From assembly GCA_937974415.1 (NCBI GenBank), contig CALJXB010000457.1:1-17499 (forward strand): a stretch of DNA of 17,499 nucleotides, read 5' to 3'. The position numbers were made by a program, and so were the translations under genes. Shown here piece after piece: positions 1,291 through 16,016 of the stretch; position 1 is the first letter of the stretch, and the number at the start of each line of letters is the position of its first letter. The notes beneath the pieces were generated by a model. The model searched no databases, had not been told where the DNA came from, and saw only the letters and a program-made list of their open reading frames with translations. The DNA comes from an uncultured Kiloniellales bacterium. Lineage in GTDB: Bacteria; Pseudomonadota; Alphaproteobacteria; Kiloniellales; JAKSDN01.

Positions 1291-1584
1291 GGCAGTCCTC
1301 AAAGCTCTTCACGCTGCGAGATAAAGAACCATTGAGTCCCCCAGTTCACATGCAGAACCCAGGCTCATCGCCCTCGGCGAGATCCATCAGGCGTTCCATA
1401 CCACGCAGCTGGACATGGTCGGGATGATGCAGATCAATCACCACTGGCTGAATTCAGAGCAAAAAGCCAATGGGATATGGCGGCGCTATGGAGGGGGCTA
1501 AACAGTGGAGCGACGCAATCTCGGAGTCCAATAGCTGTGGTGTAGGATTTGCAAGTGGAAACGTGACAACATAGATTGCTAGTG
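1291..1584. other. divergent intergenic region between ftsH copy 1 and the amidotransferase gene
   Basis: Shared upstream region of two divergent genes. It holds one near-consensus FNR/FixK-like palindrome (1424-1437). Two short open stretches were seen: a plus-strand frame without a start codon from about 1325 to a TAA at 1499-1501, and a minus-strand frame reading VVIDLHHPDHVQLRG and ending at a TGA near 1349. Neither is recognised, and both may be chance or remnants of a lost gene. Confidence 0.4.
1424..1437 (-). promoter_or_regulatory. FNR/FixK-like box, imperfect
   Basis: On the minus strand it reads TTGAT-CTGC-ATCAT, 9 of 10 conserved half-site positions of TTGAT-N4-ATCAA. It is about 140 bp upstream of ftsH copy 1 and about 150 bp upstream of the amidotransferase gene, so it could serve either. 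The distance is longer than for a classic class II site. Confidence 0.4.
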
Positions 1585-2439
1585 ATGTGCCGCCTCTATG
1601 GATTTCGGGGAACCGAGCCGACGCGCCTGGAATGCAGCCTGGTCCGGGCGCAGAACGCCCTCATGGCTCAAAGCAGAAAGGACCGTGAAGGGCTGACGCA
1701 CGGCCATGGCTGGGGCGTTGCGGAACACCCCGATGGCGTGCCCTTCGTCGAGAAACAGGCCTGGGCGGCCTATCATGGCGAGCACTTCAAGAAGACGGCC
1801 GCGCGGCTTTACTCTCGGGCCGCCATTGCCCATGTCCGTCGCGCCACCGTAGGTCCCCCGAGTTTGGAAAATACGCACCCCTTCGTTCACGGGGTCTGGC
1901 TTTTCGCCCACAACGGTACGGTGCCCAACTTCGAGCGGGTGCGCGAACGGCTGCTGCCGCAACTGGACGAGCCGCACCGCAGCGAGATACACGGCACCAC
2001 CGACAGCGAGCATATCTTTCGCTATCTTCTCACGCTGTGGCAGCGCCATCCGGACCGGCCATTCATCGAGACACTGCGCGATGGCCTGGAGCAGGTGATC
2101 GCCTGGGCCATTGAAATTGATGCGGCGGCCAAGATCTCGCTCAACGTCCTCTGGACGAATGGCGACCGGTTGGTCGGTTCACGACTGAACCGGACGCTCT
2201 GGTATCTCGAGCGCGACGGGCTCGTTCCCTGCGAGATCTGCGGTGAGACCCACGTGCATCACGATCCCCAGCAGCACTATCGCGCCGTGGAAGTCGCCTC
2301 CGAACCCATCACCAACGAGTCTTGGCAACAGATTCCCGATGGAACCGTGTTTACCGTCGACACCGATATGAGGCTGCGTATCGAGCCGATGGGAGAACAT
2401 GGCCTGGCCACTGCTCACGTTGCGACGCAGACCGCTTAA
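1585..2439 (+). CDS. class II glutamine amidotransferase (YafJ/EgtC-like)
   Basis: Predicted glutamine-hydrolysing enzyme of the Ntn-hydrolase class II amidotransferase family. The start is placed at ATG 1585, not the upstream TTG at 1576, because the protein then begins Met-Cys-Arg-Leu-Tyr-Gly; removal of Met exposes Cys2, the expected N-terminal nucleophile. Supporting motifs are HGHGWGVA, AHVRRATVG, ENTHPF and the oxyanion/Asn motif FAHNGTVPN, followed by a TTDSEHIF segment. There are 284 residues, typical for the stand-alone family. A CEICGETHVHH cluster in the C-terminal third could bind metal, but I believe it is common in this subfamily. The acceptor of the released ammonia is unknown; no synthase partner is adjacent. 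No clear Shine-Dalgarno precedes the start. Confidence 0.88.
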   Translation: MCRLYGFRGTEPTRLECSLVRAQNALMAQSRKDREGLTHGHGWGVAEHPDGVPFVEKQAWAAYHGEHFKKTAARLYSRAAIAHVRRATVGPPSLENTHPFVHGVWLFAHNGTVPNFERVRERLLPQLDEPHRSEIHGTTDSEHIFRYLLTLWQRHPDRPFIETLRDGLEQVIAWAIEIDAAAKISLNVLWTNGDRLVGSRLNRTLWYLERDGLVPCEICGETHVHHDPQQHYRAVEVASEPITNESWQQIPDGTVFTVDTDMRLRIEPMGEHGLATAHVATQTA

Positions 2440-2572
2440 CTCACCAAAAGCTTCAAGTACCACGCGAAGTCGACCTCAATGTCACGCTTCGGCGACCGCT
2501 GGAGGTCCCATCCTGCGTCCGGCCCTGGACCTCGGCCTCTGCTGGCGCCGGGGCCCGCGCCGAGCCGATGCG

Positions 2573-2593
2573 CGCTTCGGTTAATCCGAAGCG
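2573..2593. repeat. inverted repeat: 8-bp stem, 5-nt loop
   Basis: CGCTTCGG, then TTAAT, then CCGAAGCG form a perfect hairpin about 135 bp after the amidotransferase stop. No T-run follows on either strand, so it is not a textbook intrinsic terminator. It may still act as a transcript end or mRNA-stabilising structure. Confidence 0.55.
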
Positions 2594-2687
2594 GAACCGG
2601 ATGGCCGGCGCTCTTGGTTCGTAGAGACACACGTGACCGACAGCGTTCGCAGCCGTTGGATTGGCGTTATGGTCCGCCCCTGTGGCC

Positions 2688-2701
2688 TTGACCTGGGTCA
2701 A
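2688..2701 (+). promoter_or_regulatory. FNR/FixK-type operator, perfect palindrome halves
   Basis: TTGAC-CTGG-GTCAA is a fully symmetric FNR-family half-site pair with 4-bp spacing. The identical 14-mer occurs again at 9051-9064. Its centre (2694.5) is about 64 bp upstream of the ATG at 2759. A class II position at -41.5 would put the transcript start near 2736 and leave a short leader. Confidence 0.7.
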
Positions 2702-2758
2702 TGCGCCCCTGGCAGGAGATGGGCATCTTCCAATCGGACTTTGGATCGGCGTTGGAGC

Positions 2759-3034
2759 ATGTCGAATTCTATGAACCCAGACGACCGAGCGAACGCTGCC
2801 GCATCCCACCTCAGCCGCCGCGATATCTTGGACATAGCCGGCAACATCGAGGACGCCAAAGTGGCCGCCATCGAGCGGGCCGGCGCCACCGTCGAACAGC
2901 TCGAGGAGGCCGTGGCCTGGGCGTCGGGGCTGAGCGGTGTAATGGGCAAGGAGCGACACCCACGATCCGGCGTCGTTGCCGAGGTTTACGAGGTCCTGAC
3001 CGCCGATGAAGATTATGGGGACGAACTCGACTAG
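2759..3034 (+). CDS. small acidic protein of unknown function, first gene of a pair
   Basis: A 91-residue protein if the ATG at 2759 is used, or 87 from the ATG at 2771. GGAG at 2754-2757 is too close to the first start (1 nt) and far from the second (13 nt), so the start is unresolved. It is rich in Asp, Glu and Ala and predicted largely helical, with the pattern SRRDILDIAGNIEDAKV, then ATVEQLEEAVAWA, and an acidic tail. No signal peptide or membrane segment was seen. I recall similar unnamed proteins beside stress genes in proteobacteria but cannot name a function. Coding is supported by smooth composition, a perfect FNR-type box just upstream, and the host-attachment-family gene 62 bp downstream on the same strand. 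Confidence 0.75.
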   Translation: MSNSMNPDDRANAAASHLSRRDILDIAGNIEDAKVAAIERAGATVEQLEEAVAWASGLSGVMGKERHPRSGVVAEVYEVLTADEDYGDELD

Positions 3035-3096
3035 GACGCGTCTCGCAACCCCCACCGCTCCCAACTACGCCAAGAGCATGCTATAAGGTCGCTACC

Positions 3097-3546
3097 ATGA
3101 AGCCGACGATCACCTGGATCCTTGTTGCCGATAGCGCCCGCGCCCGCCTGTTCTTCAACGATGGGCCGGGCAAGGGCGTCAAGTCGGTCTCCGACCATGT
3201 GTTTCAGCACCCGACCCCGCCGGGTCGAGAGATCATGAGCGACCGGCCGGGACGGACTTTCGATTCGGTGGGCGGGGGACGCCATGCCAAGGAACCCAGG
3301 ACCGACCCGCGCAAGGTCGAAAAGCGCAGCTTCGCCCACGAACTCGCAGCGATGCTGGATGACGGACTCAAGCAAGGAAAATTCGAGCGGCTTGTGCTTG
3401 TGGCGCCGCCTGGAGAACTTGGACTTCTGCGCGCGGAGCTCTCTGAAGCCGTGCAAAAACGGGTGAGCGCTGAACTGAACAAGGACCTGACAGGTTTAAC
3501 CCCGAGCGAGATCCCGGACCACCTTGGCGACGCGATCGCCATATGA
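3097..3546 (+). CDS. host attachment family protein (Host_attach)
   Basis: A 149-residue soluble protein starting WILVADSARARLFFND, the hallmark beginning of the family Pfam calls 'protein required for attachment to host cells'. The body continues with HAKEPRTDPRKVEKRSFAHE, LAAMLDDGLKQGKFERLVLVAPP and ends LTGLTPSEIPDHLGDA, all in the family order and near its usual length. The name comes from early Agrobacterium work and the biochemical role is not established. No secretion signal is visible, so a cytoplasmic stress-related role is more likely than adhesion. AAGG lies 8 nt before the ATG. It probably forms an operon with the small gene upstream, under the FNR-type box at 2688. Confidence 0.88.
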   Translation: MKPTITWILVADSARARLFFNDGPGKGVKSVSDHVFQHPTPPGREIMSDRPGRTFDSVGGGRHAKEPRTDPRKVEKRSFAHELAAMLDDGLKQGKFERLVLVAPPGELGLLRAELSEAVQKRVSAELNKDLTGLTPSEIPDHLGDAIAI

Positions 3547-4116
3547 CGTCCAAGCTTGCGAATAACATTTAGAGGAGGCTAAGGATTTCGGGGCAACCCT
3601 TGCTTCGACCGACAGGCCCACACCGTGGCCGCGAGAGATCATTTTCCGGTCGCTGAGTGTTACTCCACGGACCACGGCCGAGAAGGCGCGAGCCGCTCTG
3701 TCCGGCGCCCTTGACGTCATCCAATGCACTCCTTCCGCTGATTTATCGTGTCCGCGACCATGGGATCACGTCTGCCTGCAGGCCTGGACCCACGTCAACG
3801 GAGGGAAAACCATCGGAATTGTCGAAGGCGCGCACTCGAAGAACACTTGAGGTGCGTCAATGCGTCGAATGGAGTGCCAACATAAGCTTCCTGTGAGATC
3901 CCGGGCGTCGAAAGCCGACAGAGCGATGGCGACAGAGGATTGCAGGCTAAAGGCACCAGTCGGAGATCAAGGAATTTGCCAGGGCAGGAGTAGCACGGCA
4001 GTGTTGATCCCAGGGGCCCGAGACTTGATGCCGACACCCCTCCTGCCAAGCTAGTATCGCTCGCTCGTGCTTGATCACAGCGGATCGATAGGCGCCAGTG
4101 GAACTGCGCGAAGACC
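3547..4116. other. long intergenic region upstream of ftsH copy 2
   Basis: 570 bp without a convincing gene. It contains an ideal AGGAGG at 3573-3578 with no ATG, GTG or TTG at the right distance, and an open frame 3566-3850 (94 codons) that lacks any start codon, which may mark a decayed gene. Two imperfect FNR-like palindromes lie at 3785-3798 (TGGAC-CCAC-GTCAA) and 3847-3860. Longer open frames on the minus strand have no recognisable signature. Confidence 0.45.
3847..3860 (+). promoter_or_regulatory. FNR/FixK-like box, imperfect
   Basis: TTGAG-GTGC-GTCAA matches 9 of 10 half-site positions. It is about 260 bp upstream of ftsH copy 2, far for direct activation unless the transcript has a long leader. 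A weaker companion is at 3785-3798. Confidence 0.3.
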
Positions 4117-5946
4117 ATGGAACGCAAGACCCATTTCAATTTCTGGTACTTCGTGATCGCCATGCTGCTGATCATGGTACTGCAGCACTGGCTGTTCGGC
4201 GCCCGGCAGGTGGAGACGGTGCCCTACAGCGAGTTCCAGTCCATGGTCCGCGACGGCCAAGTATCCGAGGTCTCGGTGGCCGACGACTACATTCGCGGCG
4301 TCCTGCGCCAGCCCCTACCCGACGGCCGCACCCAGATCTTCGCCCTCCGCGTCGACCCGGATTTGGCAAAGGACCTCGAGCAGTACGGCGTCACCTTCAC
4401 GGGCATTGCCCAGAACACCTTCGTCAGCACCTTGCTTTCGTGGGTGGTGCCGGTCCTTATTTTCGTGGTTGCCTGGATGTACCTCTTTCGCCGCATCGCC
4501 GAGCGCCAGGGCATGGGAGGCTTTCTCAACGTCGGCAAGAGCAAGGCCAAGGTCTATATGGAGACCGACACCAAGGTTTCCTTCGAGGACGTCGCCGGCG
4601 TCGACGAGGCCAAGGAGGAATTGCAGGAGGTGGTTCGCTTCCTGCGCGAGCCGGAGTCCTATGGGCGCCTCGGCGCGCACATTCCCAAGGGGGTGCTTTT
4701 GGTGGGGCCGCCCGGTTGCGGCAAGACCTTGCTCGCTCGCGCCGTCGCCGGCGAGGCTCAGGTCAAGTTCTTCTCGATCAACGGCTCGGAGTTTGTGGAG
4801 CTCTTCGTGGGCGTCGGAGCGGCCCGGGTGCGCGATCTGTTCGAGCAGGCGCGCAAGAATGCGCCCTGCATCGTCTTCATCGACGAGCTGGACGCCCTCG
4901 GCCGGGCGCGCGGTCTCTCCCCCGTTTCCGGCGGCTCGGACGAGAAAGAGCAGACCTTGAACCAGCTGCTGAGCGAGCTCGACGGCTTCGACCCGAGTTG
5001 GGGCGTGGTGCTGCTGGCCGCCACCAACCGGCCGGAGATCCTCGACCCCGCCTTGCTGCGAGCCGGGCGGTTCGACCGGCAGATCCTGGTCGACCGGCCG
5101 GATCGCGTGGGCCGGGTGCAGATCCTCAAGGTGCACCTCAAGAACGTTCAGGTCGGCGCGGACATCGATTCGGAAAAGATCGCCCAGTTGACGGCCGGAT
5201 TCACCGGCGCGGACCTCGCCAATCTGGTCAACGAGGCCACCATCCTCGCCACCCGCCGCGATGCTGCCGCCGTCGGACTGGACGACGTCGTGCGCGCCAT
5301 CGAGCGCATCGTGGCTGGGCTTGAAAAGAAGAACCGGCTGCTCAACCCGCGGGAACGGGAGGTCGTGGCGTACCACGAAACCGGCCACGCCCTGGTCGCG
5401 CTCGCCACGCCGGGAAGCGAAACTGTCCACAAGATTTCGATCATCCCACGCGGCATCGGCTCGCTGGGCTACACCATTCAGCGGCCGACCGAAGACCGTT
5501 ACCTCATGTCCAAGGAGGAGCTGAAGAACAAGATGGCGGTCCTCATGGGCGGGCGTGCCGCGGAATCGCTCGTTTTTGGAGAGATTTCCACGGGCGCGGC
5601 CGACGATCTCACCAAGGCGACGGATATCGCCCGCAGCATGGTCATGCGCTACGGCATGGATGAAACACTCGGCCACGCGATCTATGCCGAGGACCGCCCG
5701 ACGTTTCTGGAAGGCACGCCGGCCCAGCCGAACATGAGCATCCCTTGGTACAGCCAGGACACCGCCCGCGAGATCGACACCGCGGTCCGGGAGCTGGTGG
5801 GCGAGGCCTTCGAGCAGGCCATCGCCCTCCTCACGAAACACCGTAAGGAACTAAACGAAACGGCCCAACTGCTGCTGGCGCGAGAAACCTTGAACGCGGA
5901 GGACTTGCCCGCCATCGGCCCCGACGACGCGAAAGCAGCCGAGTGA
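4117..5946 (+). CDS. ftsH: ATP-dependent zinc metalloprotease FtsH, copy 2
   Basis: Complete 609-residue membrane AAA+ protease, near the family's usual 600-650. TM1 at about residues 9-27, periplasmic domain, TM2 at about 106-125, Walker A GPPGCGKT (197-204), Walker B FIDELD (254-259), pore motif FVGVG (230-234), second region of homology (about 302-321), zinc site HETGH (420-424), third zinc ligand probably Asp497 in STGAADDL, and a short helical C-terminus. Walker A has Cys where most FtsH have Thr, and the zinc helix is HETGH instead of the usual HEAGH; all catalytic ligands remain. The start fits the common FtsH N-terminus (MERKTHFNFWYF); only a weak GAAG precedes it. Likely an accessory stress FtsH rather than the housekeeping copy, inferred from the surrounding genes and a second ftsH about 2.8 kb away. 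Confidence 0.97.
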   Translation: MERKTHFNFWYFVIAMLLIMVLQHWLFGARQVETVPYSEFQSMVRDGQVSEVSVADDYIRGVLRQPLPDGRTQIFALRVDPDLAKDLEQYGVTFTGIAQNTFVSTLLSWVVPVLIFVVAWMYLFRRIAERQGMGGFLNVGKSKAKVYMETDTKVSFEDVAGVDEAKEELQEVVRFLREPESYGRLGAHIPKGVLLVGPPGCGKTLLARAVAGEAQVKFFSINGSEFVELFVGVGAARVRDLFEQARKNAPCIVFIDELDALGRARGLSPVSGGSDEKEQTLNQLLSELDGFDPSWGVVLLAATNRPEILDPALLRAGRFDRQILVDRPDRVGRVQILKVHLKNVQVGADIDSEKIAQLTAGFTGADLANLVNEATILATRRDAAAVGLDDVVRAIERIVAGLEKKNRLLNPREREVVAYHETGHALVALATPGSETVHKISIIPRGIGSLGYTIQRPTEDRYLMSKEELKNKMAVLMGGRAAESLVFGEISTGAADDLTKATDIARSMVMRYGMDETLGHAIYAEDRPTFLEGTPAQPNMSIPWYSQDTAREIDTAVRELVGEAFEQAIALLTKHRKELNETAQLLLARETLNAEDLPAIGPDDAKAAE

Positions 5947-6100
5947 CAGCCCAAAGAGCGAGCGCGTCGGGCCGCCCGGCCGCTCGGCCTTGCGTCGATG
6001 GCTCGCCGGCCGTTGGCCCGATCTGCTCACCAGCCGAAGGATCGCACACTGCGCCACACTCGCAGCCTGTCCAAGACTGCCGCAGAACGCAGGCGACACG

Positions 6101-6553
6101 CTATTTCACGGTTATGCAGGTGCAGGGAGAATGGGCGGTCACCTTGTGCGACACGCTTCCCAGCAACAGGCCTTTCATGTCTCCCAGTCCTCGGCTGCCC
6201 ATTACGATGAAATCGGCGCTCTGGGTCTCGGCAACGGATAGTACGGTCGCAGGGACGTCGCCGTATTCGAGCATCGTATCGATCTGCTCGAGACCTTCTT
6301 CGCGCGCGGCGGCGTCGGCGCTCCGCAGGATCTGCTGGCCCACGGTCTCCAGAATTTCCCGCTCCGTCGCCTCGATATTCTCGTTGCGCGCATAGCTCCG
6401 CATCTCCTCAGGGATTCGACGGCCCAAGGAGGGCGACATGACATGGAGCGCAATCATCCTGGCGCCATATTTCTGGGCCAGATCGGCAGCGAGCTTCACC
6501 GCCTTGGCGGCGTGCTCCGATCCGTCGGTCGGAACGAGAATGACTTCGACCAT
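6101..6553 (-). CDS. universal stress protein, single UspA domain
   Basis: A 150-residue UspA-fold protein. It opens with EVILVPTDGSEHA, the beta1 and Asp-containing nucleotide-pocket motif, and ends with the ATP-binding signature GSRGLGDMKGLLLGS, matching G-x2-G-x9-G-S. It therefore belongs to the ATP-binding rather than non-binding Usp class. The Cys-rich end (PCTCITVK) is usual in proteobacterial members. AGGAG lies 6 nt before the ATG. An FNR-like box (6615-6628) is centred about 68 bp upstream of the start, which fits a class II promoter with a leader of about 27 nt. Usp proteins of this kind support survival under starvation or anoxia in other bacteria; the specific partner here is unknown. 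Confidence 0.93.
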   Translation of the reverse strand: MVEVILVPTDGSEHAAKAVKLAADLAQKYGARMIALHVMSPSLGRRIPEEMRSYARNENIEATEREILETVGQQILRSADAAAREEGLEQIDTMLEYGDVPATVLSVAETQSADFIVMGSRGLGDMKGLLLGSVSHKVTAHSPCTCITVK

Positions 6554-6584
6554 CTCTAGCTCCTGTCTCCGGCTTCGTTTGAAT

Positions 6585-6598
6585 CTCGAATATTCGAG
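6585..6598. promoter_or_regulatory. 14-bp perfect palindrome in the uspA promoter region
   Basis: CTCGAATATTCGAG is self-complementary and lies between the FNR-like box and the uspA start. Its AT core sits about 29-30 bp downstream of the box centre, close to where a -10 element of a class II FNR promoter would be. It could be a -10 region, a second operator, or both. Confidence 0.4.
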
Positions 6599-6614
6599 CA
6601 GTCCGCGTAGCGCA

Positions 6615-6628
6615 TTGACCTGGATCAG
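6615..6628 (-). promoter_or_regulatory. FNR/FixK-type operator upstream of uspA
   Basis: Plus-strand TTGAC-CTGG-ATCAG matches 9 of 10 half-site positions and shares the GCATTGACCTGG context with the site at 9051. The centre is about 68 bp upstream of the minus-strand uspA start. Confidence 0.6.
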
Positions 6629-7177
6629 CCCAGCAAGTTCTGCGGTCCGCCGACTTCCGTTCCCCGCGGTCGTGAGGCCGGCAATCGCGTCTCGGAAATG
6701 CGCTGCTCGTGGGATTGAAAGCCCCCCGAAGCGGCCTGTTGGTGCGCCACCGTTTTCTCGATTGGCCGAGCTTGATCAGCGTGCGGCCGCTCCGCTTGCG
6801 AGCCAATTCCGGTCGGCGCTTCGCCGTTATCGAGGTCAAAGCGACGGGCCCGCTCGCCATGTCTAAATTCACCTGGATAGCCTGTCGAAGCCGATCCCGC
6901 TTCAAGCGGTCGGCATTGATCCTTATGATGGCACCCGGCCCCGGTTTCAGCGCTGCTGCGATTTGGCTCGAATCGGCAGGACAAGGCCCGACCCGGAAGG
7001 TAGTTTGACGGTCCATAGCCGGCATTCGCCTATGACGCCGGGATACGAGCAGCTCTGAGCCCTGCCGCTCCGTTGTGAACGGGCGCAGTCGGGGAGTCGC
7101 GGGAGCCGGCCCCGAGCGTGCCGGTGCGATGGCTCGGCATACACAAGGCACGCAGTCTGGCAGAAGAGTGCGATGTT

Positions 7178-8353
7178 ATGATGGGTCACACTTACAGCGG
7201 GACTCGTTGCAGCGGCGAGCGCTCTCTGCAGCGTGCCGCAACTGAGATCCGATGGCCGGCCCTCTGGGCCGTCGTCCTATTGTTCGCCTGGCCACCGACT
7301 CAAACGGCAGCCGAATTTCCAACGAAGCCGGGCGGCATACCGTCGTTGGCGCCTCTTATGGAGGACGTGACGCCTGGTGTCGTCAATATCGCGACGCGCG
7401 GCCATGTACGGATCGAACGGACCCCGTTTTTCGATGACCCGGGGTTCCGCGAGTTCTTTGAAAATCCTTCTCTTCGTCGTTTTTTCAATCTGCCCGAGGA
7501 GCCCGTCGGGCGCGAGGTGCAAAGTATCGGGTCCGGAGTGATCGTCGATGCCGAAGAAGGCTACGTTCTCACCAACCACCACGTCATCGCACAGGCCGAC
7601 GATATTCTGGTGACGCTCAAGGACGGGCGGCGCGTCGAGGCCAAGTTGCTGGGCTCAGATCCAGGTACGGACATTGCAGTGCTGAGGATCGAGCCCGAAA
7701 GGCTGCATTCCGTACCGCTTGGCAACTCAGAAGAACTGGAGGTCGGCGACTTCGTGGTGGCGATCGGCAATCCCTTCGGCCTGGGTCAGACCGTCACCAT
7801 GGGAATTGTCAGCGCCCTAGGCCGCCACGGGCTCCGTGCTGAGGGCTACGAAGATTTCATTCAGACGGATGCGTCGATCAACCCAGGCAATTCCGGTGGC
7901 GCGCTTGTTGACTTGCAGGGCCGGCTCGTCGGCATCAACACCGCCATTATCGGCCCAGCTGGTGGCAACATCGGTATCGGGTTTGCCATACCCGTCAACA
8001 TTGTGCACGAGGTCATGGATCAAATTGTCGCATTCGGCGTGGTCCGGCGAGGTCGCCTGGGTGTCTTGATCCGGGATCTCACTCCAGAGCCTGCACAAGG
8101 TCTCGGAATCGATACTGCCAAGGGCGTGATCATTGAGGAGGTGGTCCCCGACTCGGCGGCGGATCGTGCAGGGATCCAACCCGGCGACGTCATCCTTCGG
8201 GTCAACGGAGAGGAAGTCGTCGACTCGGCCGCCTTGCGTACGAAGATCGGCCTATCGCGCGTTGGAGAGGTCGTCAGGCTTGAAGTCCTGCGGGGAGACC
8301 GCAAGATTCAGGTCGCGATTCAAATCGAAGAGGCGCCCACGCAGGGCGAATGA
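7178..8353 (+). CDS. periplasmic trypsin-like serine protease, one PDZ domain (DegS/DegQ/HtrA family)
   Basis: HtrA-family protease for envelope protein quality control. From the ATG at 7178 it has 391 residues; an in-frame ATG at 7118 and another at 7181 are also possible. A hydrophobic stretch WPALWAVVLLFAW near residues 26-38 is followed by TQTAA, so it is either a cleaved signal peptide or a membrane anchor. Catalytic triad: His135 (NHHV), Asp165 (PGTDIAV) and Ser239 (PGNSGGAL). A single PDZ domain follows at about 290-385 with the ligand-loop sequence RGRLGVLI. One PDZ is the DegS/HhoB layout, whereas DegP and DegQ have two. It is convergent with hsp20, 64 bp away. No FNR-type box was found upstream. 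Confidence 0.94.
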   Translation: MMGHTYSGTRCSGERSLQRAATEIRWPALWAVVLLFAWPPTQTAAEFPTKPGGIPSLAPLMEDVTPGVVNIATRGHVRIERTPFFDDPGFREFFENPSLRRFFNLPEEPVGREVQSIGSGVIVDAEEGYVLTNHHVIAQADDILVTLKDGRRVEAKLLGSDPGTDIAVLRIEPERLHSVPLGNSEELEVGDFVVAIGNPFGLGQTVTMGIVSALGRHGLRAEGYEDFIQTDASINPGNSGGALVDLQGRLVGINTAIIGPAGGNIGIGFAIPVNIVHEVMDQIVAFGVVRRGRLGVLIRDLTPEPAQGLGIDTAKGVIIEEVVPDSAADRAGIQPGDVILRVNGEEVVDSAALRTKIGLSRVGEVVRLEVLRGDRKIQVAIQIEEAPTQGE

Positions 8354-8417: not shown

Positions 8418-8972
8418 CTATTTGATAGGAATGCTCCGGCCCTTGAGTTTGGCTCCGGCTACTCTCGGTAGCGTAATGGTCATCACGCCTTTGTCGAACT
8501 TGGCTGAAATTCTGTCCGCATTGACGTCGTCCGGCAAACGGAAAGAACGCCGGAAGGATCCATAACTTCGCTCGGACACGTGGTAGCCCTCCTTTTTCTC
8601 TTCGTGCTCAGACTTCTTCTCGCCGGAAAGCATTAGCACATCATCCTGCAGGCTCAAGTTGACGTCCTTCTCCTCCACTCCTGGCAACTCAGCGGTGATT
8701 TCATAGGACTTTTTGTCCTCCGAGACCTCTACATGGGGCACCACCTCGCCGCCGCCAAGTTCGAACGCCGAGCTCAGCCGGCGGAAAGGATCGAAGCCGA
8801 TACTTGTCGGAAACTCTGGGGCTAGGCGCTCGAAGAACCGGTCGATGTCCCGGCGCATCGAGGCCAGCGGCTCGAACAGCTGTCCGAAGGACTCTGGCGA
8901 GGCCCTGCCTTCCTCACCCTTCACCGGAGTAGAGGCCTTACTCTTGGACACCTTGACGCTTCCCTTTGCCAT
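8418..8972 (-). CDS. small heat shock protein, Hsp20 / alpha-crystallin family
   Basis: ATP-independent holdase chaperone, 184 residues. The ATG at 8972 is chosen because AGGAG lies 8 nt upstream and the product starts MAKGSVKVSKSKAS; the longer frame from 9020 would add 16 unlikely residues. N-terminal arm about 1-76 with the SMRRDIDRFFERL helix; alpha-crystallin domain about 77-170 including ITAELPGVEEKDV and GVMTITLP; C-terminal IPI anchor motif at 181-183, used in oligomer assembly. A perfect FNR-type box is centred about 85 bp upstream, suggesting induction by low oxygen in addition to any heat control. I saw no ROSE or other thermosensor leader. Confidence 0.95.
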   Translation of the reverse strand: MAKGSVKVSKSKASTPVKGEEGRASPESFGQLFEPLASMRRDIDRFFERLAPEFPTSIGFDPFRRLSSAFELGGGEVVPHVEVSEDKKSYEITAELPGVEEKDVNLSLQDDVLMLSGEKKSEHEEKKEGYHVSERSYGSFRRSFRLPDDVNADRISAKFDKGVMTITLPRVAGAKLKGRSIPIK

Positions 8973-9050
8973 CGTCGGACTCCTTTGGTTTCGGAGTGAA
9001 AGTTCAAAGAATTTCACCACACCAACTTGCCGAGGAGTTCGAGGAAAGCA

Positions 9051-9064
9051 TTGACCTGGGTCAA
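9051..9064 (-). promoter_or_regulatory. FNR/FixK-type operator, perfect, upstream of hsp20
   Basis: TTGAC-CTGG-GTCAA, identical to the site at 2688-2701. It is centred about 85 bp upstream of the hsp20 start; a class II arrangement would give a leader of about 44 nt. Confidence 0.7.
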
Positions 9065-9272: not shown

Positions 9273-9286
9273 TTGATGCCGATCAA
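9273..9286 (+). promoter_or_regulatory. FNR-type operator, canonical
   Basis: TTGAT-GCCG-ATCAA is the textbook FNR consensus, 10 of 10. It lies 178 bp upstream of the CBS gene start, with a weaker second site at 9352 between. Confidence 0.65.
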
Positions 9287-9351: not shown

Positions 9352-9365
9352 TTGTCATGGATCAA
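9352..9365 (+). promoter_or_regulatory. FNR-like box, imperfect, upstream of the CBS gene
   Basis: TTGTC-ATGG-ATCAA matches 9 of 10 positions. Its centre is about 105 bp upstream of the CBS gene ATG and 79 bp downstream of the perfect site's centre at 9279.5, so the two may act in tandem. Confidence 0.45.
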
Positions 9366-9900: not shown

Positions 9901-10071
9901 GTCGATGCCCTATCCACGGCCCTGATGGTTCTCGGTCCTGACGATGGATGGGCGCTGGCCGAACACGAGAAACTCGCCGCACTGTCTATCCTAAGGCACG
10001 GCGACAGCTTCGCTGAAGTCTCTTCGTCGGCGTTTGAACGCTATAGGGTTGGGGGACGGGCCGCAGGATGA
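9901..10071 (+). pseudogene. 3' remnant of apbE (FAD:protein FMN transferase)
   Basis: An open frame of 56 codons, directly preceded by an in-frame TAG (9898-9900), reads VDALSTALMVLGPDDGWALA and ends at TGA 10069-10071. This is the C-terminal signature of ApbE, where T-A-D-A-L-(A/S)-T-A-L followed by VLG is near-invariant. Full ApbE has about 300 residues, so roughly the first four fifths are missing and there is no start codon. The stop overlaps the ATG of the following NqrM-like frame (ATGA), as in intact apbE-nqrM pairs. ApbE attaches FMN covalently to flavoproteins such as NqrB/NqrC or RnfG. Interpreted as a deletion relic between the two CBS genes. Confidence 0.75.
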
Positions 10072-10310
10072 CGATGCTGGTCATGAATTTCCTTGTCATG
10101 ACGCTTGCCGCGCTGGGAATGGCAGTGGGCGTGATCGCGGGACGTCGGCCAATCGCGGCCGGATGAGCGCGTTTCGACGGTCTGCTCGATGGGCCGGCGG
10201 AATGCGAGGTTTGTAGCGGAATATGTGACGCCCGGCCTAAGGATGCTAACGGCGCAAAAGCGTCGTCGGACGCGAGACCGGTTTTAGGGCTTGCCCATCT
10301 TCTTGAGTGA
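10068..10310 (+). pseudogene. NqrM-like protein gene with an in-frame TGA at a conserved Cys position
   Basis: The ATG at 10068 overlaps the apbE stop. The first 32 codons give one membrane helix and the family motif GMAVGVIAGRRPIAAG, then TGA at 10164-10166. The same frame stays open for another 47 codons to TGA 10308-10310 and includes CEVCSGICDAR. NqrM proteins, as I remember them, follow the helix with G-S-C-G-G and later Cys residues ending C-D-A-R, so the TGA falls on the first conserved Cys. NqrM matures the iron site of Na+-NQR. With apbE upstream truncated, pseudogenisation is the likeliest reading; selenocysteine or a sequencing error remain possible. The frame ends 9 bp before the next CBS gene. 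Confidence 0.6.
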
Positions 10311-10319
10311 CGCAGCCAC

Positions 10320-10715
10320 ATGGCTCAACGGTTCACAGCAGAGCAATACATGTCGAGCGACTTGGTCACCTTCTCGCCGGCAATGGATCTTCGCTGCGCG
10401 ATCAGGCTGCTATTGAAGAATCGCATTTCCGGTGCGCCAGTTGTCGACAGCCTGGGCCGGCTTGTCGGCATTCTTACAAAAAAGGATTGTCTCAAGGTCG
10501 CCTTCTCTGCCAGCTATCACCAGGAATGGGGCGGCCACGTGGCCCAGGTCATGAGCCGCGAAGTGCAGACGGTGGAGGCCCAATCCGACGTCGTGGAGGT
10601 GGCCGGGCTGTTCCTCAACAGCCGGTTCCGGCGGTTCCCTGTGATGAAGAATGGTCGTCTCGTGGGGGTGATCAGCCGCCACGACGTCTTACGGGCGCTC
10701 GACGACCTTTGGTAA
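10320..10715 (+). CDS. CBS-domain pair protein (stand-alone), copy 2
   Basis: A 131-residue Bateman module with two CBS motifs: AEQYMSSDLVTFSP, RISGAPVVDSLGRLVGILTKKD in the first half and VMSREVQTVEAQSDV, RFRRFPVMKNGRLVGVISRHD in the second. It is clearly divergent from the copy at 9464, so this is an old paralogue. No effector domain, membrane segment or strong Shine-Dalgarno is seen. The start sits 9 bp after the NqrM-like frame, so its translation may once have been coupled to that gene. It ends 50 bp from the convergent tandem UspA gene. Likely ligand is an adenine nucleotide, by family only. Confidence 0.9.
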   Translation: MAQRFTAEQYMSSDLVTFSPAMDLRCAIRLLLKNRISGAPVVDSLGRLVGILTKKDCLKVAFSASYHQEWGGHVAQVMSREVQTVEAQSDVVEVAGLFLNSRFRRFPVMKNGRLVGVISRHDVLRALDDLW

Positions 10716-10765
10716 CCCCTTAGGCTGTTCGCAATGAGTATATTCGTCGCCACTGCGCGATCGGA

Positions 10766-11653
10766 TCAGTCCACCATCAGGACCGGGAGCGTTGCCCGGG
10801 AGAGAACCGTTCCCGTGACGCTGCCGAAGATCAAGCGCCGGATCCGGTCTCGCGTATAAGCACCCATCACCAGCATATCAGCGCCGGCCTCGCCGATCTG
10901 CTCAAGGAGTATATCGCCGGCCGAGACGGCCGTGCTGTCAAGCGTGATGCTTCTTGCGCCGACGCCGTGCCACCTTAGAAAGTCCACCAGGTTTTCGGCG
11001 TTTGGCTCGAACGGTTCGCCCTCATTAATCGTGATTACGACCACGTCCTCGGCCGCTGCGAGAAAGTCCATTGCCATCGCAACCGCACGCGACGCTTCAG
11101 CGCTCCCGTTCCAGGCTACCGCGACGTGCTGGCCAAAGGTCTCGCCCGTGGTCTTCGAGCAGATGAGGACGGGGCGGCCGGTTTCCCGCAACGCTACTTC
11201 AAGCATGAGAGGACGATCGGTGTCCGTGGCAAGCGGTGGGCGGGCGGTGACGATGATATCGGCAAGCCGGCCACGAACGGCAAGCGACCTCCGCACCTCC
11301 CCAACCCGCTCGATGAAGTTGGCCGAGAATCCCTCTTTGGCGCCGGGCTGCGACAATGCTGGCGGCTTGAGGCGGGCCGAGACGGTGTCGAACAGGGTCC
11401 GGGCCCGGTGACGGCGTCTGTCGCTTTCAACGTCGATGGTGTCGAGCAATTCATCCACGGCCGCGCCGGGGATCCAAGGGGCCAATTGGGTTCGCGTATC
11501 GGAGCGTTCTGCTTCGATGCAAAAGACCTCCACGTGCGCATCGAACCGGCGGCCAAGCACGAAGCCGGTTTCGAGGGCCGGCTGCTCCAATGATTCCGGA
11601 TCCTCCGGATCATATTGACCGCTGAGGGGTACCAGTATCTTCCTGATCGCCAT
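10766..11653 (-). CDS. universal stress protein, tandem UspA domains
   Basis: A 295-residue protein from the ATG at 11653, preceded by AGGAG about 7 nt upstream. A longer frame from 11797 adds 48 residues of unlikely sequence and is rejected. The N-terminal half starts MAIRKILVPLSG and has lost a clear ATP motif; the C-terminal half restarts at HVAVAWNGSAEASRAVAMAMDF and ends GAYTRDRIRRLIFGSVTGTVL, a variant of the Usp signature in which the second Gly is Thr. This tandem layout is common in alphaproteobacteria. It is the last gene of a minus-strand group after the hydrolase and phosphoribosyltransferase genes, about 170 bp beyond the latter's readthrough end. No FNR-type box lies directly upstream, so it may depend on readthrough. 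Confidence 0.9.
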   Translation of the reverse strand: MAIRKILVPLSGQYDPEDPESLEQPALETGFVLGRRFDAHVEVFCIEAERSDTRTQLAPWIPGAAVDELLDTIDVESDRRRHRARTLFDTVSARLKPPALSQPGAKEGFSANFIERVGEVRRSLAVRGRLADIIVTARPPLATDTDRPLMLEVALRETGRPVLICSKTTGETFGQHVAVAWNGSAEASRAVAMAMDFLAAAEDVVVITINEGEPFEPNAENLVDFLRWHGVGARSITLDSTAVSAGDILLEQIGEAGADMLVMGAYTRDRIRRLIFGSVTGTVLSRATLPVLMVD

Positions 11654-11821
11654 GGAGTGCTCCTCTGGTGTCGGGGCCCAATGGTAGGTGCGATGCCTTC
11701 CCACAACTCCCTCTTCCGGATTATGGCATCTCTCGCGTTTTTTGTTGCGGGAGAATCTTACCGGTTGAAGGAGCTCGTTAAAGCGCTTCCCGAACAAATC
11801 GTGTGCGTACCGTAGTACGAG

Positions 11822-11917
11822 TCAACTTACACCGGAGGCTTCGATGTCTTTCTGAAGCTCTTCCGCCTCTGCCAGAAGCTTTACGACCTCATCGTCCGAA
11901 AGCTGATGAAAATCCTC
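11822..11917 (-). other. in-frame C-terminal tail of the phosphoribosyltransferase beyond the TAG
   Basis: After TAG the same frame reads EDFHQLSDDEVVKLL and on to a TGA at 11822-11824, 31 residues in total. EDF, Q and the acidic D-x-E-V run are the usual ending of this PRTase family. One base change (TAT or TAC to TAG) explains the break, so it is either a recent nonsense mutation, a readthrough site or a base-call error. Confidence 0.8.
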
Positions 11918-12499
11918 CTAGAAGATCCCGATTGCCATGAAGAACTCGGGCGTCTCGAGGCAGTGGACGGCATCCACCTCCTGCCGGAGGGCCTCGACTG
12001 TCTCGGGAGGTGCTACCGGCGCGGCCAGAACGAGGCGAGCTGGCTCCCGACGGCGAATCGCGCGCAGGGCCGCCTTGATCGTCGCGCCCGTTGCAATGCC
12101 GTCGTCGGCGACAATGGCCGTCGTTCCACGCGGATCGACGCGGCTCCGGCCCGAGAGGTAGGCATGTCGCCGTTCCTCGATTTCCACGAGTTTCCGATCT
12201 GTCTCCTCTTTGAGAAACGCTTCCGACAACCGCAACGGTTCCACCACGGTCGGGTTCAATACGACCTGGGGTTCGTCTCCGTCGACTACAGCGCCGGCGG
12301 CCAGTTCCGGCTGAAACGGCACGCCGATCTTACGGACCAGAATGAGATCGAGTGGTGCCCTCAGGGCTTTGGCAATCTCGTATCCGATTGGCACGCCCCC
12401 GCGCGGAAGGGCGAACACCGCCGGACGCTGATCCGCATAGCGAAGCAGATCTTGGGCGAGCTTTCGGCCGGCCTCGTGGCGGTCAAGAAATCGTATCAT
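11918..12499 (-). CDS. phosphoribosyltransferase family protein, shortened by an amber codon
   Basis: Type I PRTase fold, 193 residues. N-terminal FLDRHEAGRKLAQDL, substrate-side loop ALPRGGVPIGYEIA (about 30-43) and the PRPP-binding motif IVADDGIATGAT (129-140) are intact. The substrate is unknown; members of this group are often called predicted phosphoribosyltransferases and are not purine salvage enzymes by sequence. The start overlaps the end of the hydrolase gene by 17 bp, so the two are translationally linked; in Mycobacterium tuberculosis the same two domains are, as I recall, fused in Rv0571c. The frame stops at TAG (11918-11920) exactly where the family normally has Tyr in (W/F)-Y-E-D-F, and the conserved tail continues in frame to 11822. 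Activity of the shortened form is uncertain. Confidence 0.88.
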   Translation of the reverse strand: MIRFLDRHEAGRKLAQDLLRYADQRPAVFALPRGGVPIGYEIAKALRAPLDLILVRKIGVPFQPELAAGAVVDGDEPQVVLNPTVVEPLRLSEAFLKEETDRKLVEIEERRHAYLSGRSRVDPRGTTAIVADDGIATGATIKAALRAIRRREPARLVLAAPVAPPETVEALRQEVDAVHCLETPEFFMAIGIF

Positions 12500-13178
12500 C
12501 CGTCTTCGTCCTCGCCGAGGCGAGATGGCCGGCGAACCAGTCGCGGGTCAACGCGATCACTCGGTCGAGCGTCCCTGGCTCCTCGAAGAGGTGCGTCGCA
12601 CCCGGCACCACTTCGAGCGCCTTCTCGCAGATCAGTGCCTCATAGGCAGCTTGGTTGAGGGCAAGCACCTGGCTATCCAGGCCGCCCACGATCAAAATCG
12701 TCGGCGCATCGACTCCATCGAGCCCGTCCATCGCCAGATCCGGACGACCACCGCGCGAGACAACGGCAACAATTCGGCCGCGCGCCTCGCTGGCCGCGAC
12801 CAGGGCGGCTGCGGCGCCGGTGCTGGCCCCGAAATAACCGACCGGCAGGAGGCGCGTGCGTTCGTCCGAAGCGGCCCAGCGCCGAGCCATATCGAGGCGG
12901 CTAGCCAACAACGGAATGTCGAACACATTGGCCCGATCCAAAGCCTCTTCTTCCGTCAGCAGGTCGAAGAGCAAGGTGGCGAGGCCGGCTTGGTTCAAGA
13001 CGGTCGCCACGTAGGTGTTGCGCGGACTCAACCGACTGCTGCCGCTGCCATGGGCGAAAACGACCAGGGCCCGGCTGGGCTGAGCCAGGGCCAGGATTCC
13101 GTTCAGGCCGACCGGTGGCACGACGACCTCGTGCCGATCGATCCGAACCACGCCTTCTGCAGATTTCTCCGGTTCCAC
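12483..13178 (-). CDS. alpha/beta hydrolase (dienelactone-hydrolase-like)
   Basis: A 231-residue serine hydrolase. Oxyanion-hole region FAHGSGSSRLSPRN (about 41-54), nucleophile elbow GASTG with Ser119 preceded by YF, acid residue Asp168 in VGGLDSQV and catalytic His196 in GATHLFEEPG give a complete triad in the family order. No signal peptide. This subgroup is often found fused to, or beside, the phosphoribosyltransferase; here the two genes overlap by 17 bp with the hydrolase first. The natural substrate is unknown and may be the product or precursor of the PRTase step. A degenerate FNR-like palindrome (13265-13278) lies 87 bp upstream. Annotated by similarity of motifs only. Confidence 0.9.
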   Translation of the reverse strand: MEPEKSAEGVVRIDRHEVVVPPVGLNGILALAQPSRALVVFAHGSGSSRLSPRNTYVATVLNQAGLATLLFDLLTEEEALDRANVFDIPLLASRLDMARRWAASDERTRLLPVGYFGASTGAAAALVAASEARGRIVAVVSRGGRPDLAMDGLDGVDAPTILIVGGLDSQVLALNQAAYEALICEKALEVVPGATHLFEEPGTLDRVIALTRDWFAGHLASARTKTDDTIS

Positions 13179-13264
13179 TGCGCCTCGATGCCTGATACCT
13201 GCGACCTAGGGTTAGGGCTCTGTCCTCAGCTGTTTAGGTTTATGGTGGAGGGGGCGGTCCAACA

Positions 13265-13278
13265 TTGCGCTAGATCAG
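13265..13278 (-). promoter_or_regulatory. degenerate FNR-like palindrome upstream of the hydrolase gene
   Basis: Plus-strand TTGCG-CTAG-ATCAG keeps the outer TTG and ATCA, the CATTG prefix and the spacing of the stronger sites, but only 7 of 10 half-site positions. It is 87 bp from the hydrolase start, a distance similar to the hsp20 site. Weak. Confidence 0.25.
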
Positions 13279-13343
13279 GTTCAGCCTCAAAAAGAACCCT
13301 TATCAAAGTCACCTGACGACGTCCGGTTCGAAAGGGGTAAAGT

Positions 13344-14405
13344 GTGCCGGAGCAACCAGTGAGCGGTCGGGAGCCTGGCCCAAGCCTGGCGGAAAAGGTC
13401 GCGGTGCTGATGCGGCCTGACAGCTACCCCAGTCCGGACGGTCGGGTCGAGGCCTTGGAGACCCATATGTCCTGGGTCTTCCTGACGGATCGACACGCCT
13501 ACAAGCTCAAGAAACCGGTACGTTTCGATTTTCTCGACTTCAGCACCCTTGAGGCTCGGGAGTGGGATTGCCGCGAGGAAGTTCGGCTGAACCGCCGCCT
13601 CGCTCCAAAGACCTATCTCGGGGTGGTGCCTCTGACGATGAGTGGCCGGGACCATCTGCGGCTCGGTGGCAAAGGAACGGTCGTCGATTGGCTCGTCAAG
13701 ATGCGGCGGTTACCGAGTGCGTTGATGCTCGACACGGTTATCAAAGCGGGCCAGGCCGACGCGGCTGTGGTCTCGAAGGTGGCCGCTCTGTTGAGCCGGT
13801 TCTATGCGGGTCTTGCTCCGGTCCCGATGAGCCCATCTGACTATATCGAGCGATTCGAGCGCGAGATTGACGAACATCGCCGCGAACTGGCGATACCGGA
13901 CTACGGCATGCCGGACGAACTCGTCTCGTCCATCGCCCTTGCTCAGGCGAATTTCCTTCAAGGCAGTGCAGGGCTGTTGCGCGAACGCATCAACGGGCAC
14001 CGCATCGTTGAGGGCCATGGCGACCTCAGGCCCGAGCACGTATTTGTCGGTAGTCCGCCGGTCGTGATCGATTGTCTGGAGTTCAACAAGCAGTTTCGCA
14101 TTGTCGACCCGGCGGACGAGCTTGCGTTTCTCTGGATGGAATGCGCGTTCCTGGGGGCACCGGCAGTGGGTGGGGGAATTTGGCGCGGCTATGCGGAGGC
14201 GACGGGCGATGCGGTGCCCGGCGCACTGCTCTCGTTCTATCGCTCCCACCGGGCTTGTCTCAGGGCCAAGCTGTCGCTCTGGCACCTCAAGGATCACGAC
14301 GTTCGCGAGCCGGGCAAGTGGCGGTCCCGCGCGAAAAAGTACCTGGGCCTGGCCGATCACGCTGCGAGGCAATTCGCCGTTGTCAGCGGGCAAGCGGCCA
14401 GCTAA
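13344..14405 (+). CDS. aminoglycoside-phosphotransferase-like kinase (COG2187 type)
   Basis: A 353-residue protein from GTG 13344, with AGGGG 7 nt upstream. Kinase-like APH fold: nucleotide-lobe segment [16 protein letters not shown] (51-66) with the probable ATP lysine, a variant hinge VKMRRLP, catalytic-loop motif HGDLRPEHV (225-233) and metal-binding VIDCLEF (241-247). The family often carries an N-terminal or C-terminal P-loop kinase domain as well; here only the APH-like part is present. The substrate is unknown and antibiotic resistance is not implied. The mycobacterial relative Rv2004c belongs to the DosR regulon. Its stop overlaps the convergent PRPP synthetase stop by a few bases (14402-14405). 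Confidence 0.88.
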
Positions 14406-15409
14406 GCCTCAGGCCGAGGAGATGAATCCTCGAGAAGGTCGACAATCGACTCTCCGGTATGAAGCCGTTTGATTGCTTCGGCGAACAGCTGCGCGGCGTC
14501 AATCTCGACGAGCTTTCGGTCGCGTAACTCGGGCGAAAGGCGGAACGGCGGAATGGTATCGGTGACCACCAACTCGTCGATATCCGGGCCAGACAGAAGG
14601 CAGTTTGCATCCCCCACGAACAAACCATGCGACGCTGCCGCCAATACGTCCGTCGCGCCCTGTGCCCGGCAGGCTTTGGCGGTTCGTGCCATGGTCGTTC
14701 CAGCGCTGATCAGGTCGTCGATAATGACGGCGGCCTTGCCCGCAACATCGCCGACAAGCGTCTGACCGCGGACCTCACCGAGGCTCCGGGTTTTCTCCAT
14801 GAAGGCGCTGCCGATCGGCCGGTCCATCACCCGGCTCAGGACATCGCGAAGACGGTCCGCGCGTTTCACGCCTCCCGCGTCCGGCGAGACCACCACGATC
14901 TCGGGATTGTTGATCCTCGTCACGAAATGGCGGGCAAAGAGTCGGGCTGCTTCCAGGTGCTCTGTGCAGCAGCGGAAGGCGTTCTGAAAGGCGGCGAGAT
15001 TATGAACGTCAAGCGTCACTACCCGGTCCGTCCCCACCGCCTCGAATAAGCCTGCAAGATAGCGAGTTGTGACCGGGTCGCGCGGCTTCGTCTTGCGGTC
15101 CTTCCGCGCAAAGCAAAGATAGGGAACGACCGCCGTGACCCGTCCGGCCGAGGCGTCCTTGAGCGCGCCAATGAAAAACAGCAAACGGCATAGCTTTTCG
15201 TCCGCGCTGCGCTCGTCGTCACCGTGCAACGATTGAACCACGAAGACATCGCTGGCGCGCACACTCGCCAGGGGCCTGACCTTGTATTCGCTGTCTTCGA
15301 AGTCCCGCTCTTCGTGATCGCTCAAGGCGGTTCCCAGATGCCCTGCGACCTTCTCGGCATAGGCGCGGCCGCAATTGAGGCTGAAAAGATGAAGGGTCGA
15401 ACGGGTCAC
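14402..15409 (-). CDS. ribose-phosphate pyrophosphokinase (PRPP synthetase) paralogue
   Basis: Transfers pyrophosphate from ATP to ribose 5-phosphate to make PRPP. The GTG at 15409 is preferred: it overlaps the upstream GYD stop as GTGA, and gives [14 protein letters not shown], the expected first strand; an ATG at 15457 would add 16 stray residues. 335 residues. Motifs: [16 protein letters not shown] (56-71), [17 protein letters not shown] (96-112), TLDVHN (132-137, catalytic His region), VSPDAGG (174-180), and PRPP loop [11 protein letters not shown] (229-239). The flexible catalytic loop reads FMEKTRS, differing from the common KRR form. Probably an accessory stress copy rather than the essential prs, and a likely PRPP source for the phosphoribosyltransferase at 12499. 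Confidence 0.92.
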
Positions 15410-15717
15410 GTTTTCGCCGGCGGCAGATAACGCACCAGTTCCTTGAACCTCTTCCATTCCGTCGCACCCCAGACCTCGGTCTCAGCATGACCGAAAGTTC
15501 GCACCACGGTCGCCACTTTCGTGGCAGTTTCGTTGTCCGGCGCCGTGAAGATATCGAGGTAGTCACTAGGACCGAGCACAGCATAGCTGCTCAACCACTT
15601 GACCTCGGGGCATTCCGCCTCGATCCGCTCCATCACCTCCCGCTCGAGATTCTCCAGGGAACTCGGCGATTGAAGGGCGCTATGGGACAGTCTCGTCAGC
15701 ATGATGAATGTTTGCAT
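15406..15717 (-). CDS. GYD domain protein
   Basis: A 103-residue single-domain protein of the GYD family, a ferredoxin-like fold of unknown function. It starts [12 protein letters not shown] and has the family core [21 protein letters not shown], where G-P-(S/Y)-D is the naming motif, followed by [19 protein letters not shown]. No clear Shine-Dalgarno. It is the first gene of a two-gene operon with the PRPP synthetase (stop and start share GTGA). An FNR-like box is centred 102 bp upstream (15813-15826). A link between GYD proteins and PRPP synthesis is not known to me, so the pairing is of interest. Confidence 0.88.
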
Positions 15718-15812
15718 CGCACAGGCTCGCTTGGCGGTCTAAGTGTGAGCCATCCGGCCGAGATTAGCCGTGAGGCTTTCTCACAATGAAACGCAAGATC
15801 TCCCAACGCGCA

Positions 15813-15826
15813 TTGACCTGTGTCAT
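15813..15826 (-). promoter_or_regulatory. FNR/FixK-type operator upstream of the GYD-prs operon
   Basis: TTGAC-CTGT-GTCAT, 9 of 10 half-site positions, with the same GCATTGACCTG context as the sites at 6615 and 9051. Centred 102 bp upstream of the GYD start. Confidence 0.55.
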
Positions 15827-16002
15827 CTGTTTCGCCGTCTCAAGACACAACCGGCTCTACTTGCCGGATCTGAACAGGCCGGGATCTCAACACGTGGGCG
15901 CGAGGCGGCTGGGCCGGGCACCGATTTCACCGGGCTTGCGGTGACAGCCTATCCAGGGGCGGATAGATACCTGCAGGGTTCTGCCGTGCAAAAGGCCGGG
16001 CG

Positions 16003-16016
16003 TTGACTTGCATCAA
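16003..16016 (+). promoter_or_regulatory. FNR/FixK-type operator, perfect
   Basis: TTGAC-TTGC-ATCAA, 10 of 10 half-site positions. It lies 267 bp upstream of the MFS start and 286 bp from the GYD start, too far for simple class II activation of either. It may drive an untranslated transcript or a long leader. Confidence 0.6.

Follow-up and report, generated by a model that had tools for sequence, protein, structure and literature searches.

Predicted FNR-type operators in a putative low-oxygen stress island of an uncultured Kiloniellales bacterium and at proteobacterial loci of an accessory phosphoribosyl pyrophosphate synthase

Do the palindromes scattered among the stress-protein genes of an uncultured Kiloniellales bacterium serve as operators of a low-oxygen regulon, and, if so, of one regulator? 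The DNA in question, hereafter the window, is contig C457 (CALJXB010000457.1 of assembly GCA_937974415.1; 17,499 nucleotides), which belongs to a draft genome of 2.89 Mb (2893 kb) in 469 contigs that is 69% complete. A first-pass annotation had claimed nine palindromes of the type bound by CRP/FNR-family regulators in the window and had read the genes beside them, encoding a universal stress protein (Usp), the small heat-shock protein Hsp20, a CBS-domain protein, a host-attachment protein, a GYD-domain protein with a phosphoribosyl pyrophosphate (PRPP) synthase (prs) and perhaps FtsH, as one hypoxia-induced response under one regulator. It had also proposed that such sites be counted genome-wide, in intergenic versus coding DNA, in shuffled sequence and in the promoters of orthologous genes. 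The results of these comparisons make it highly probable that the units of the window are under FNR-type control, with the operators placed in the class II position. The genome scan, the intergenic bias, the conservation in promoters, the class II spacing to -10 elements and the presence of fitting regulators all uphold the palindromes as CRP/FNR-type operators.

A site was defined as an exact match to TTGAY-N4-RTCAA or as a match with at most one mismatch, a pattern scan rather than a weight matrix being used; 200 shuffles gave the chance level for the window, and the reversed pattern served as the control for the genome. The window holds four exact sites (0.05 expected) and 11 sites with at most one mismatch (1.20 expected), and none of the 200 shuffles reached either count. 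All nine palindromes first described are present, with the same division into exact (2688, 9051, 9273 and 16003) and one-mismatch sites (1424, 3847, 6615, 9352 and 15813), and the context GCATTGACCTG said to be common to three of them is found at 6615, 9051 and 15813. Beyond these nine, one-mismatch sites occur at 3785 and 14910; the latter lies within the coding DNA of prs and was rejected as an operator.

With distances measured from the site centre, the exact box TTGACCTGGGTCAA at 2688..2701 is located 64 bp upstream of the gene for an orphan 91-amino-acid protein (2759..3034, plus strand), here called DUFx91, for which no Pfam match was found when it was scanned within a longer frame, and no NCBIfam match. 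The orphan gene is followed after a 62-bp gap by a gene for a host-attachment protein (Host_attach/baeRF family 12, PF10116; 3097..3546, plus strand), and the two probably form one transcription unit. The one-mismatch box at 6615..6628 lies 68 bp upstream of the start of the Usp gene (PF00582; 6101..6553, minus strand), and a second copy of TTGACCTGGGTCAA, at 9051..9064, lies 86 bp upstream of the ATG of the Hsp20 gene (PF00011; 8418..8972, minus strand), where the ATG at 8972 was preferred to a GTG at 9020. Two boxes precede the CBS gene (PF00571; 9464..9886, plus strand): the exact TTGATGCCGATCAA at 9273..9286, 184 bp before it, and the one-mismatch TTGTCATGGATCAA at 9352..9365, 106 bp before it. 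The one-mismatch box at 15813..15826 is found 102 bp before a unit in which the GYD gene (PF08734; 15409..15717, minus strand) is directly upstream of the accessory prs (assigned by Pfam; 14402..15457, minus strand). For ftsH (AAA and peptidase M41 domains by Pfam; 4117..5946, plus strand), the one-mismatch site TTGAGGTGCGTCAA at 3847..3860, 264 bp before the gene, is a weak candidate. The exact box TTGACTTGCATCAA at 16003..16016, 274 bp before a major facilitator superfamily (MFS) gene and 292 bp before the GYD gene, and the one-mismatch site at 1424..1437, between a second FtsH-type gene and a class II amidotransferase gene, are without a clear target gene; visual inspection of 16003 to 16283 for a short gene gave none that was convincing. 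Of all these sites, 9273, 16003, 1424, 3785 and 3847 are doubtful as operators. Five of the nine sites (2688, 6615, 9051, 9352 and 15813), including two of the four exact ones, agree with the earlier statement of a usual distance of 60-110 bp to a start codon; 9273, 16003, 3847 and 1424 (128 or 158 bp) do not. The second FtsH-type gene occupies positions 1-1302 and shows extracellular and AAA domains; its protease domain is invisible because the gene runs off the end of the contig.

Across the draft genome, the exact pattern occurs 31 times and its reversed control not at all. Four of the 31 sites fall in the window contig, 17.5 kb of 2893 kb, a clustering whose binomial P of about 4e-5 is indicative only because the window was not randomly drawn. 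By a codon-score script, 26 of the 31 sites lie outside called coding frames and five inside, a ratio that may be slightly high because frames below the score threshold of the script, such as that of the 91-amino-acid orphan, are uncalled. When start codons were read manually, the sites at C32:3880, C133:1609 and C334:5216 were found in over-long N-terminal extensions, which brings the non-coding sites to 29 of 31 and leaves C91:2140 and C346:4886 as the truly coding ones. The neighbours of the sites include genes for a COX1-type oxidase (contig C334), for cytochrome cd1 nitrite reductase and a cytochrome c (C133), for three Usp (C18, C35 and, behind an orphan paralogue, C188), for a CBS protein (C275), for a cytochrome c assembly protein (C69) and for a nitroreductase (C283). 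On C188 they also include a Dnr-like gene, a gene for a norB-like COX1 protein, preceded by a small protein without a Pfam family, and a gene for a 4Fe-4S membrane protein that we take for a putative NosR; the names nor, nos and nir are our assignments, as Pfam gives domain families only. Other sites stand beside genes without an obvious link to oxygen, which encode a solute-binding protein, a papain-type peptidase, a phospholipase-D-type protein, a nitrilase-type protein, DUF47 and DUF3775. Taken together, the list looks like an FNR/Dnr regulon plus extras.

Promoters were compared over at most 350 bp upstream in this genome and 57 relatives, with the genome's own copies included in the counts; the counts refer to the best-scoring loci, at most 30 per search, which are homologues of unproven orthology. 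The orphan protein has matches in 18 of the 58 genomes, at 19 loci, of which 15 could be placed and 14 scanned. An exact box is found in ten of these 14 promoters and a box with at most one mismatch in all 14, where the Markov expectation is 0.00 and 0.20, respectively; two of the promoters are the genome's own. Its own copies of the gene, at 2759-3034 of the window and at C188:6601-6861 (L035, beside the dnr-like gene), both follow an identical TTGACCTGGGTCAA. The family as a whole, with 73 proteins of 86-91 amino acids found, has no Pfam or NCBIfam match and is uncharacterised. For Hsp20, 14 of 30 promoters carry an exact box and 25 one with at most one mismatch (0.02 and 0.60 expected); for Usp, the numbers are 11 and 15 of 29 (0.06 and 0.90 expected), the lower-ranked homologues being mostly without a box; and for the host-attachment protein they are 3 and 13 of 30 (0.06 and 0.66 expected). 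Among the 30 CBS promoters, the only exact box is the window's own at 9273, and five have a box with at most one mismatch (0.58 expected). The three closest orthologues (L219, L220 and L221; 69-76% protein identity) retain the 9352 site, TTGTC-N4-ATCAA, two of them letter for letter. Because 9352 is kept there and 9273 is unconserved, the weaker site is probably the working one. Conservation is thus seen for the orphan, Hsp20 and nearer Usp homologues and, for CBS, at the imperfect site in three orthologues. The gene list originally put forward as one response is not supported in full: the exact site 9273 is unconserved, 14910 lies in coding DNA, 16003 and 1424 lack a clear target, and the site 3847 at ftsH is weak.

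The position of these boxes relative to putative -10 elements was examined in three sets: set A, 40 sites of prs loci with unambiguous direction; set B, 39 sites in promoters of orphan and Hsp20 homologues, one-mismatch sites included; and an own set of 21 hand-picked sites (18 exact ones from the genome's 31 and, from the window, three with one mismatch), of which 20 were usable. In set A, a hexamer with at least four of the six TATAAT letters, including A2 and T6, a rule scored before any looser form, is found at +28 from the site centre in 12 of 40 and at +29 in six, with no more than four at other offsets and no more than five anywhere in reversed orientation. With the TATAAT-based score, set B has 2 of 39 at +29, though the mean match there is the second-highest; TANNNT and nANNNT reach 11 and 22 of 39 at this offset, but set B is not blind because these looser forms were adopted after the TATAAT result. 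The nANNNT peaks are 15 of 40 at +28 in set A, 22 of 39 at +29 in set B and 8 of 20 at +29 in the own set, with per-offset means of 2.16, 1.41 and 0.71, respectively. A -10-like hexamer at +28/+29 places the site centre near -41, which is the class II position.

Close homologues of the window prs are rare among the relatives, with identities of 66, 56, 55 and 50% (genomes G007, G042, G028 and G013); the remaining matches there, with at most 48% identity, were taken as other prs types. A four-sequence profile yielded 440 candidate places; the 80 highest-ranking ones, selected by protein sequence alone, were kept and grouped by hand from their record titles, and expectations were calculated with a first-order Markov model. 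The 55 proteobacterial loci contain 108 exact sites versus 2.35 expected (46-fold), while seven loci of Methylococcales (Gammaproteobacteria) contain none versus 0.55 expected; the Methylococcales were separated after this absence had been seen, and with them included the count is 108 versus 2.90 in 62 loci. The other 18 loci (six of Cyanobacteria, five of Bacteroidota and seven single ones, two of these from older "delta" lineages) contain two versus 1.60 expected. In 33 of the 55 proteobacterial loci, 48 sites lie at most 350 bp before homologues of window genes, with none there in the other 22; no box stands in this position in any of the 25 loci outside this group. In the 80 loci together, the reversed control gives two matches. 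A matched background was available for 49 of these genomes, which have 2300 sites in 213.6 Mb (234 for the reversed control): their prs loci hold 88 sites versus 8.6 predicted from their own genome densities, which is 10.5 times the density elsewhere. In L107, which is among the two proteobacterial prs loci that have a GYD homologue, the GYD-prs order is that of the window and an exact TTGACCTGGGTCAA stands 60 bp before GYD. In L100 and L110, the ftsH homologue has an exact site 82-89 bp upstream; these are two of the four ftsH homologues placed in proteobacterial prs loci. One-mismatch sites precede prs in L060.

The window prs is convergent with a gene for an APH-like kinase (13344..14405, plus strand), whose Pfam APH match is weak and below the cut-off. 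Such kinases are recurrent neighbours of accessory prs across several phyla: the two genes are convergent in many of the 80 loci and in tandem in all five Bacteroidota loci, and a kinase could be placed in one of the six Cyanobacteria loci. Genes for a phosphoribosyltransferase and an alpha/beta hydrolase are adjacent at 11918-13178 of the window, and genes of both families lie close to prs at many of the 80 loci as well. In the Methylococcales loci (L092, L094, L098, L101, L103, L104 and L109), the order is phosphoribosyltransferase-hydrolase-prs, with no exact box in the examined DNA; with one mismatch allowed they have 22 sites versus 15.7 expected, and another regulator may act there. We tentatively propose, with slightly less than even confidence, that the accessory prs together with the APH-like kinase, the phosphoribosyltransferase and the hydrolase is a portable PRPP/nucleotide kit for surviving oxygen limitation, repeatedly wired to FNR/Dnr class II boxes in Proteobacteria and otherwise in Cyanobacteria, Bacteroidota and Methylococcales, and that the family of 86-91 amino acids may belong to the core of the FNR regulon as a new member.

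Which regulator could read these boxes? HTH_Crp_2 is above its cut-off in five proteins of the genome, the fifth being encoded on C384, and the wider cNMP-binding family matches twelve places. Two of the five are FnrL-like, with the pattern C-x2-C-x7-C plus a later Cys, so that all four cluster cysteines are present: the C447 protein has Cys 15, 18, 26 and 114 and the helix ETVSR, and the C332 protein has Cys 18, 21, 29 and 117, an extra Cys 103 and the helix ETTSR. The NCBIfam FnrL model scores them at 167.5 and 188.9 bits, below the equivalog cut-off of 300, and the best solved relatives of the C447 protein are FixK2 (4i2o) and FNR. One of the two FnrL paralogue genes (L016 and L045) adjoins a Usp gene, and a one-mismatch site precedes the C332 gene. 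The Dnr-like C188 protein, without N-terminal cysteines, has the helix ETLSR and two exact boxes upstream of its gene; the fourth relative, on C133, has the helix ETICR and a box upstream. All four share an E-x-x-S/C-R helix, and an E-x-x-S-R helix reads TTGA. A CRP/FNR homologue occurs within the examined DNA in eight of the 80 prs loci; a regulator gene inside the island is not the rule. The Dnr site is described as indistinguishable from the Anr box (PMC5398030). Because four candidates (two FnrL paralogues, the Dnr-like protein and the fourth CRP/FNR relative) could read the same box, and the Dnr and Anr sites are described as indistinguishable, a single regulator cannot be claimed, and this part of the first-pass annotation is unsupported.

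We propose that the window belongs to a low-oxygen stress island where the orphan and host-attachment/baeRF genes, Usp, Hsp20, CBS, GYD-prs and perhaps ftsH would form units each with an FNR-type operator. An FnrL dimer would be active at low oxygen, where its [4Fe-4S] cluster stays intact, and this dimer and/or that of the Dnr-like protein, which would respond to nitric oxide, would bind about 41 bp upstream of the transcription start, contacting RNA polymerase at a -10 element starting 28-29 bp from the site centre. We infer both the hypoxia induction of the window genes and the assignment of a regulator and a signal to each site.

Several observations weigh against FNR-type control of the window as proposed. 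No box lies within 350 bp upstream of the window host-attachment gene, and the exact CBS site 9273 is unconserved, with an exact site in 0 of 29 relatives' promoters and one with at most one mismatch in 4 of 29. The sole genome of the same genus, 72% complete, has six sites and lacks a match to Hsp20 or the orphan, and the homologue counts are not independent because many of the relatives are close to one another. The individual window sites have weak -10 matches, and TANNNT also shows small +29 peaks on the opposite strand (4 of 40 in set A and 5 of 39 in set B), which divergent promoters could explain. No exact box was found on the examined contig stretches of the two FnrL genes. Among solved relatives of the Dnr-like protein, two unnamed CRP-type chains come first and DNR (3dkw) third, and its best NCBIfam model is FtrB, at 139.3 below the cut-off of 211.

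Different CRP/FNR members might instead act at different genes, which would then share an operator type with no single co-ordinated response, as the four candidates with compatible helices and the mixture of TTGAC and TTGAT half-sites among the boxes of the genome would allow. However, the concentration of genome sites in the window contig and the excess of sites at prs loci over the rest of the same 49 genomes point to shared control of the neighbourhood, and we regard this alternative as unlikely. Somewhat less probable still is that the main signal for the island is nitric oxide or denitrification, sensed via the Dnr-like protein, and not oxygen acting directly via FnrL. This would agree with the pair of exact boxes before the dnr-like gene, with the likeness of the Dnr and Anr sites, and with the orphan paralogue and Usp gene that lie behind an identical box and adjoin dnr-like and nor/nos-type genes. 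A Usp gene also adjoins one FnrL gene, however, and Usp is a predicted FNR target and Hsp20 and CBS proteins are predicted FixK targets, though Usp is also placed under DNR (PMC2908626). Chance palindromes or a dispersed repeat element, suggested by the same 14 bases at two sites and a GCA prefix common to three, are rejected as practically without probability, since the flanks otherwise differ, no shuffle reaches the observed counts, boxes recur in homologue promoters and in excess at prs loci, and the -10 spacing is kept.

With FNR-type control of the window units as the preferred reading, what began as a guess has become a tested regulon prediction with named operators, in which the orphan family and the accessory PRPP synthase are named as likely low-oxygen survival genes. 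The prs loci provide a natural control, as boxes stand before these genes in 33 of 55 proteobacterial loci versus none of the 25 others, and the role of PRPP metabolism in anoxic bacterial survival becomes testable in laboratory strains.

Gene sets of this kind are known from other bacteria. Usp, Hsp20 and CBS proteins are in the inventory of the DosR regulon of mycobacteria, as they are in the window; that regulon uses two-component haem sensors and a different box. In Myxococcus xanthus, the NmpR regulon also links Usp, cbb3 oxidase and a CBS protein to oxygen-linked control, but NmpR is an NtrC-like response regulator of a two-component system, unlike the CRP/FNR type here (PMC11841059). 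The box of the window is also that of the FNR, FixK and DNR regulons of Dufour et al. (2010), whose predicted alphaproteobacterial FNR regulon includes uspA and cbb3 oxidase genes; Hsp20 and a CBS protein are predicted there under FixK, and a Usp under DNR. Among the members named in the excerpts of that paper, neither GYD-prs nor the APH-like kinase, ftsH or the orphan 91-amino-acid protein occurs (PMC2908626). In D. shibae, three usp genes are under activation by FnrL, and nosR2 and hemA3 have sites 41.5 bp upstream of their transcription starts (PMC5398030). Under microoxia, Bradyrhizobium diazoefficiens raises Usp, CBS-domain and host-attachment proteins, among which Usp blr2761 and bll6069, CBS blr6074 and host attachment bll5315 are marked "+" as direct FixK2 targets, while the consecutively numbered bll4644 (Usp), bll4645 (host attachment) and blr4646 (CBS) are marked "-" (PMC6515984). 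That species uses a FixLJ-FixK2 cascade; here FnrL- and Dnr-like proteins were found, and no search was aimed at FixLJ.

The low-oxygen-activated (lxa) locus of Burkholderia cenocepacia, with 50 genes and the Anr-like BCAM0049 as its suspected regulator (PMC6127331, PMC3759415, PMC9733578), resembles the window in that genes for Usp, six in that locus, are clustered with one for a putative heat-shock protein; the island is raised when oxygen is low. It differs in having DUF1488, BON, PhbB and phosphofructokinase, for which there is no Pfam match among the 17 window proteins scanned. In the open-licence literature searched, no link of the FNR box with either the accessory prs set or the orphan family was found. 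The predicted FnrL/FixK/Dnr-type regulon described here is a gene set of a known kind, similar to the lxa locus; what is new in it is an uncharacterised family of small proteins and an unusual set of genes around a PRPP synthase.

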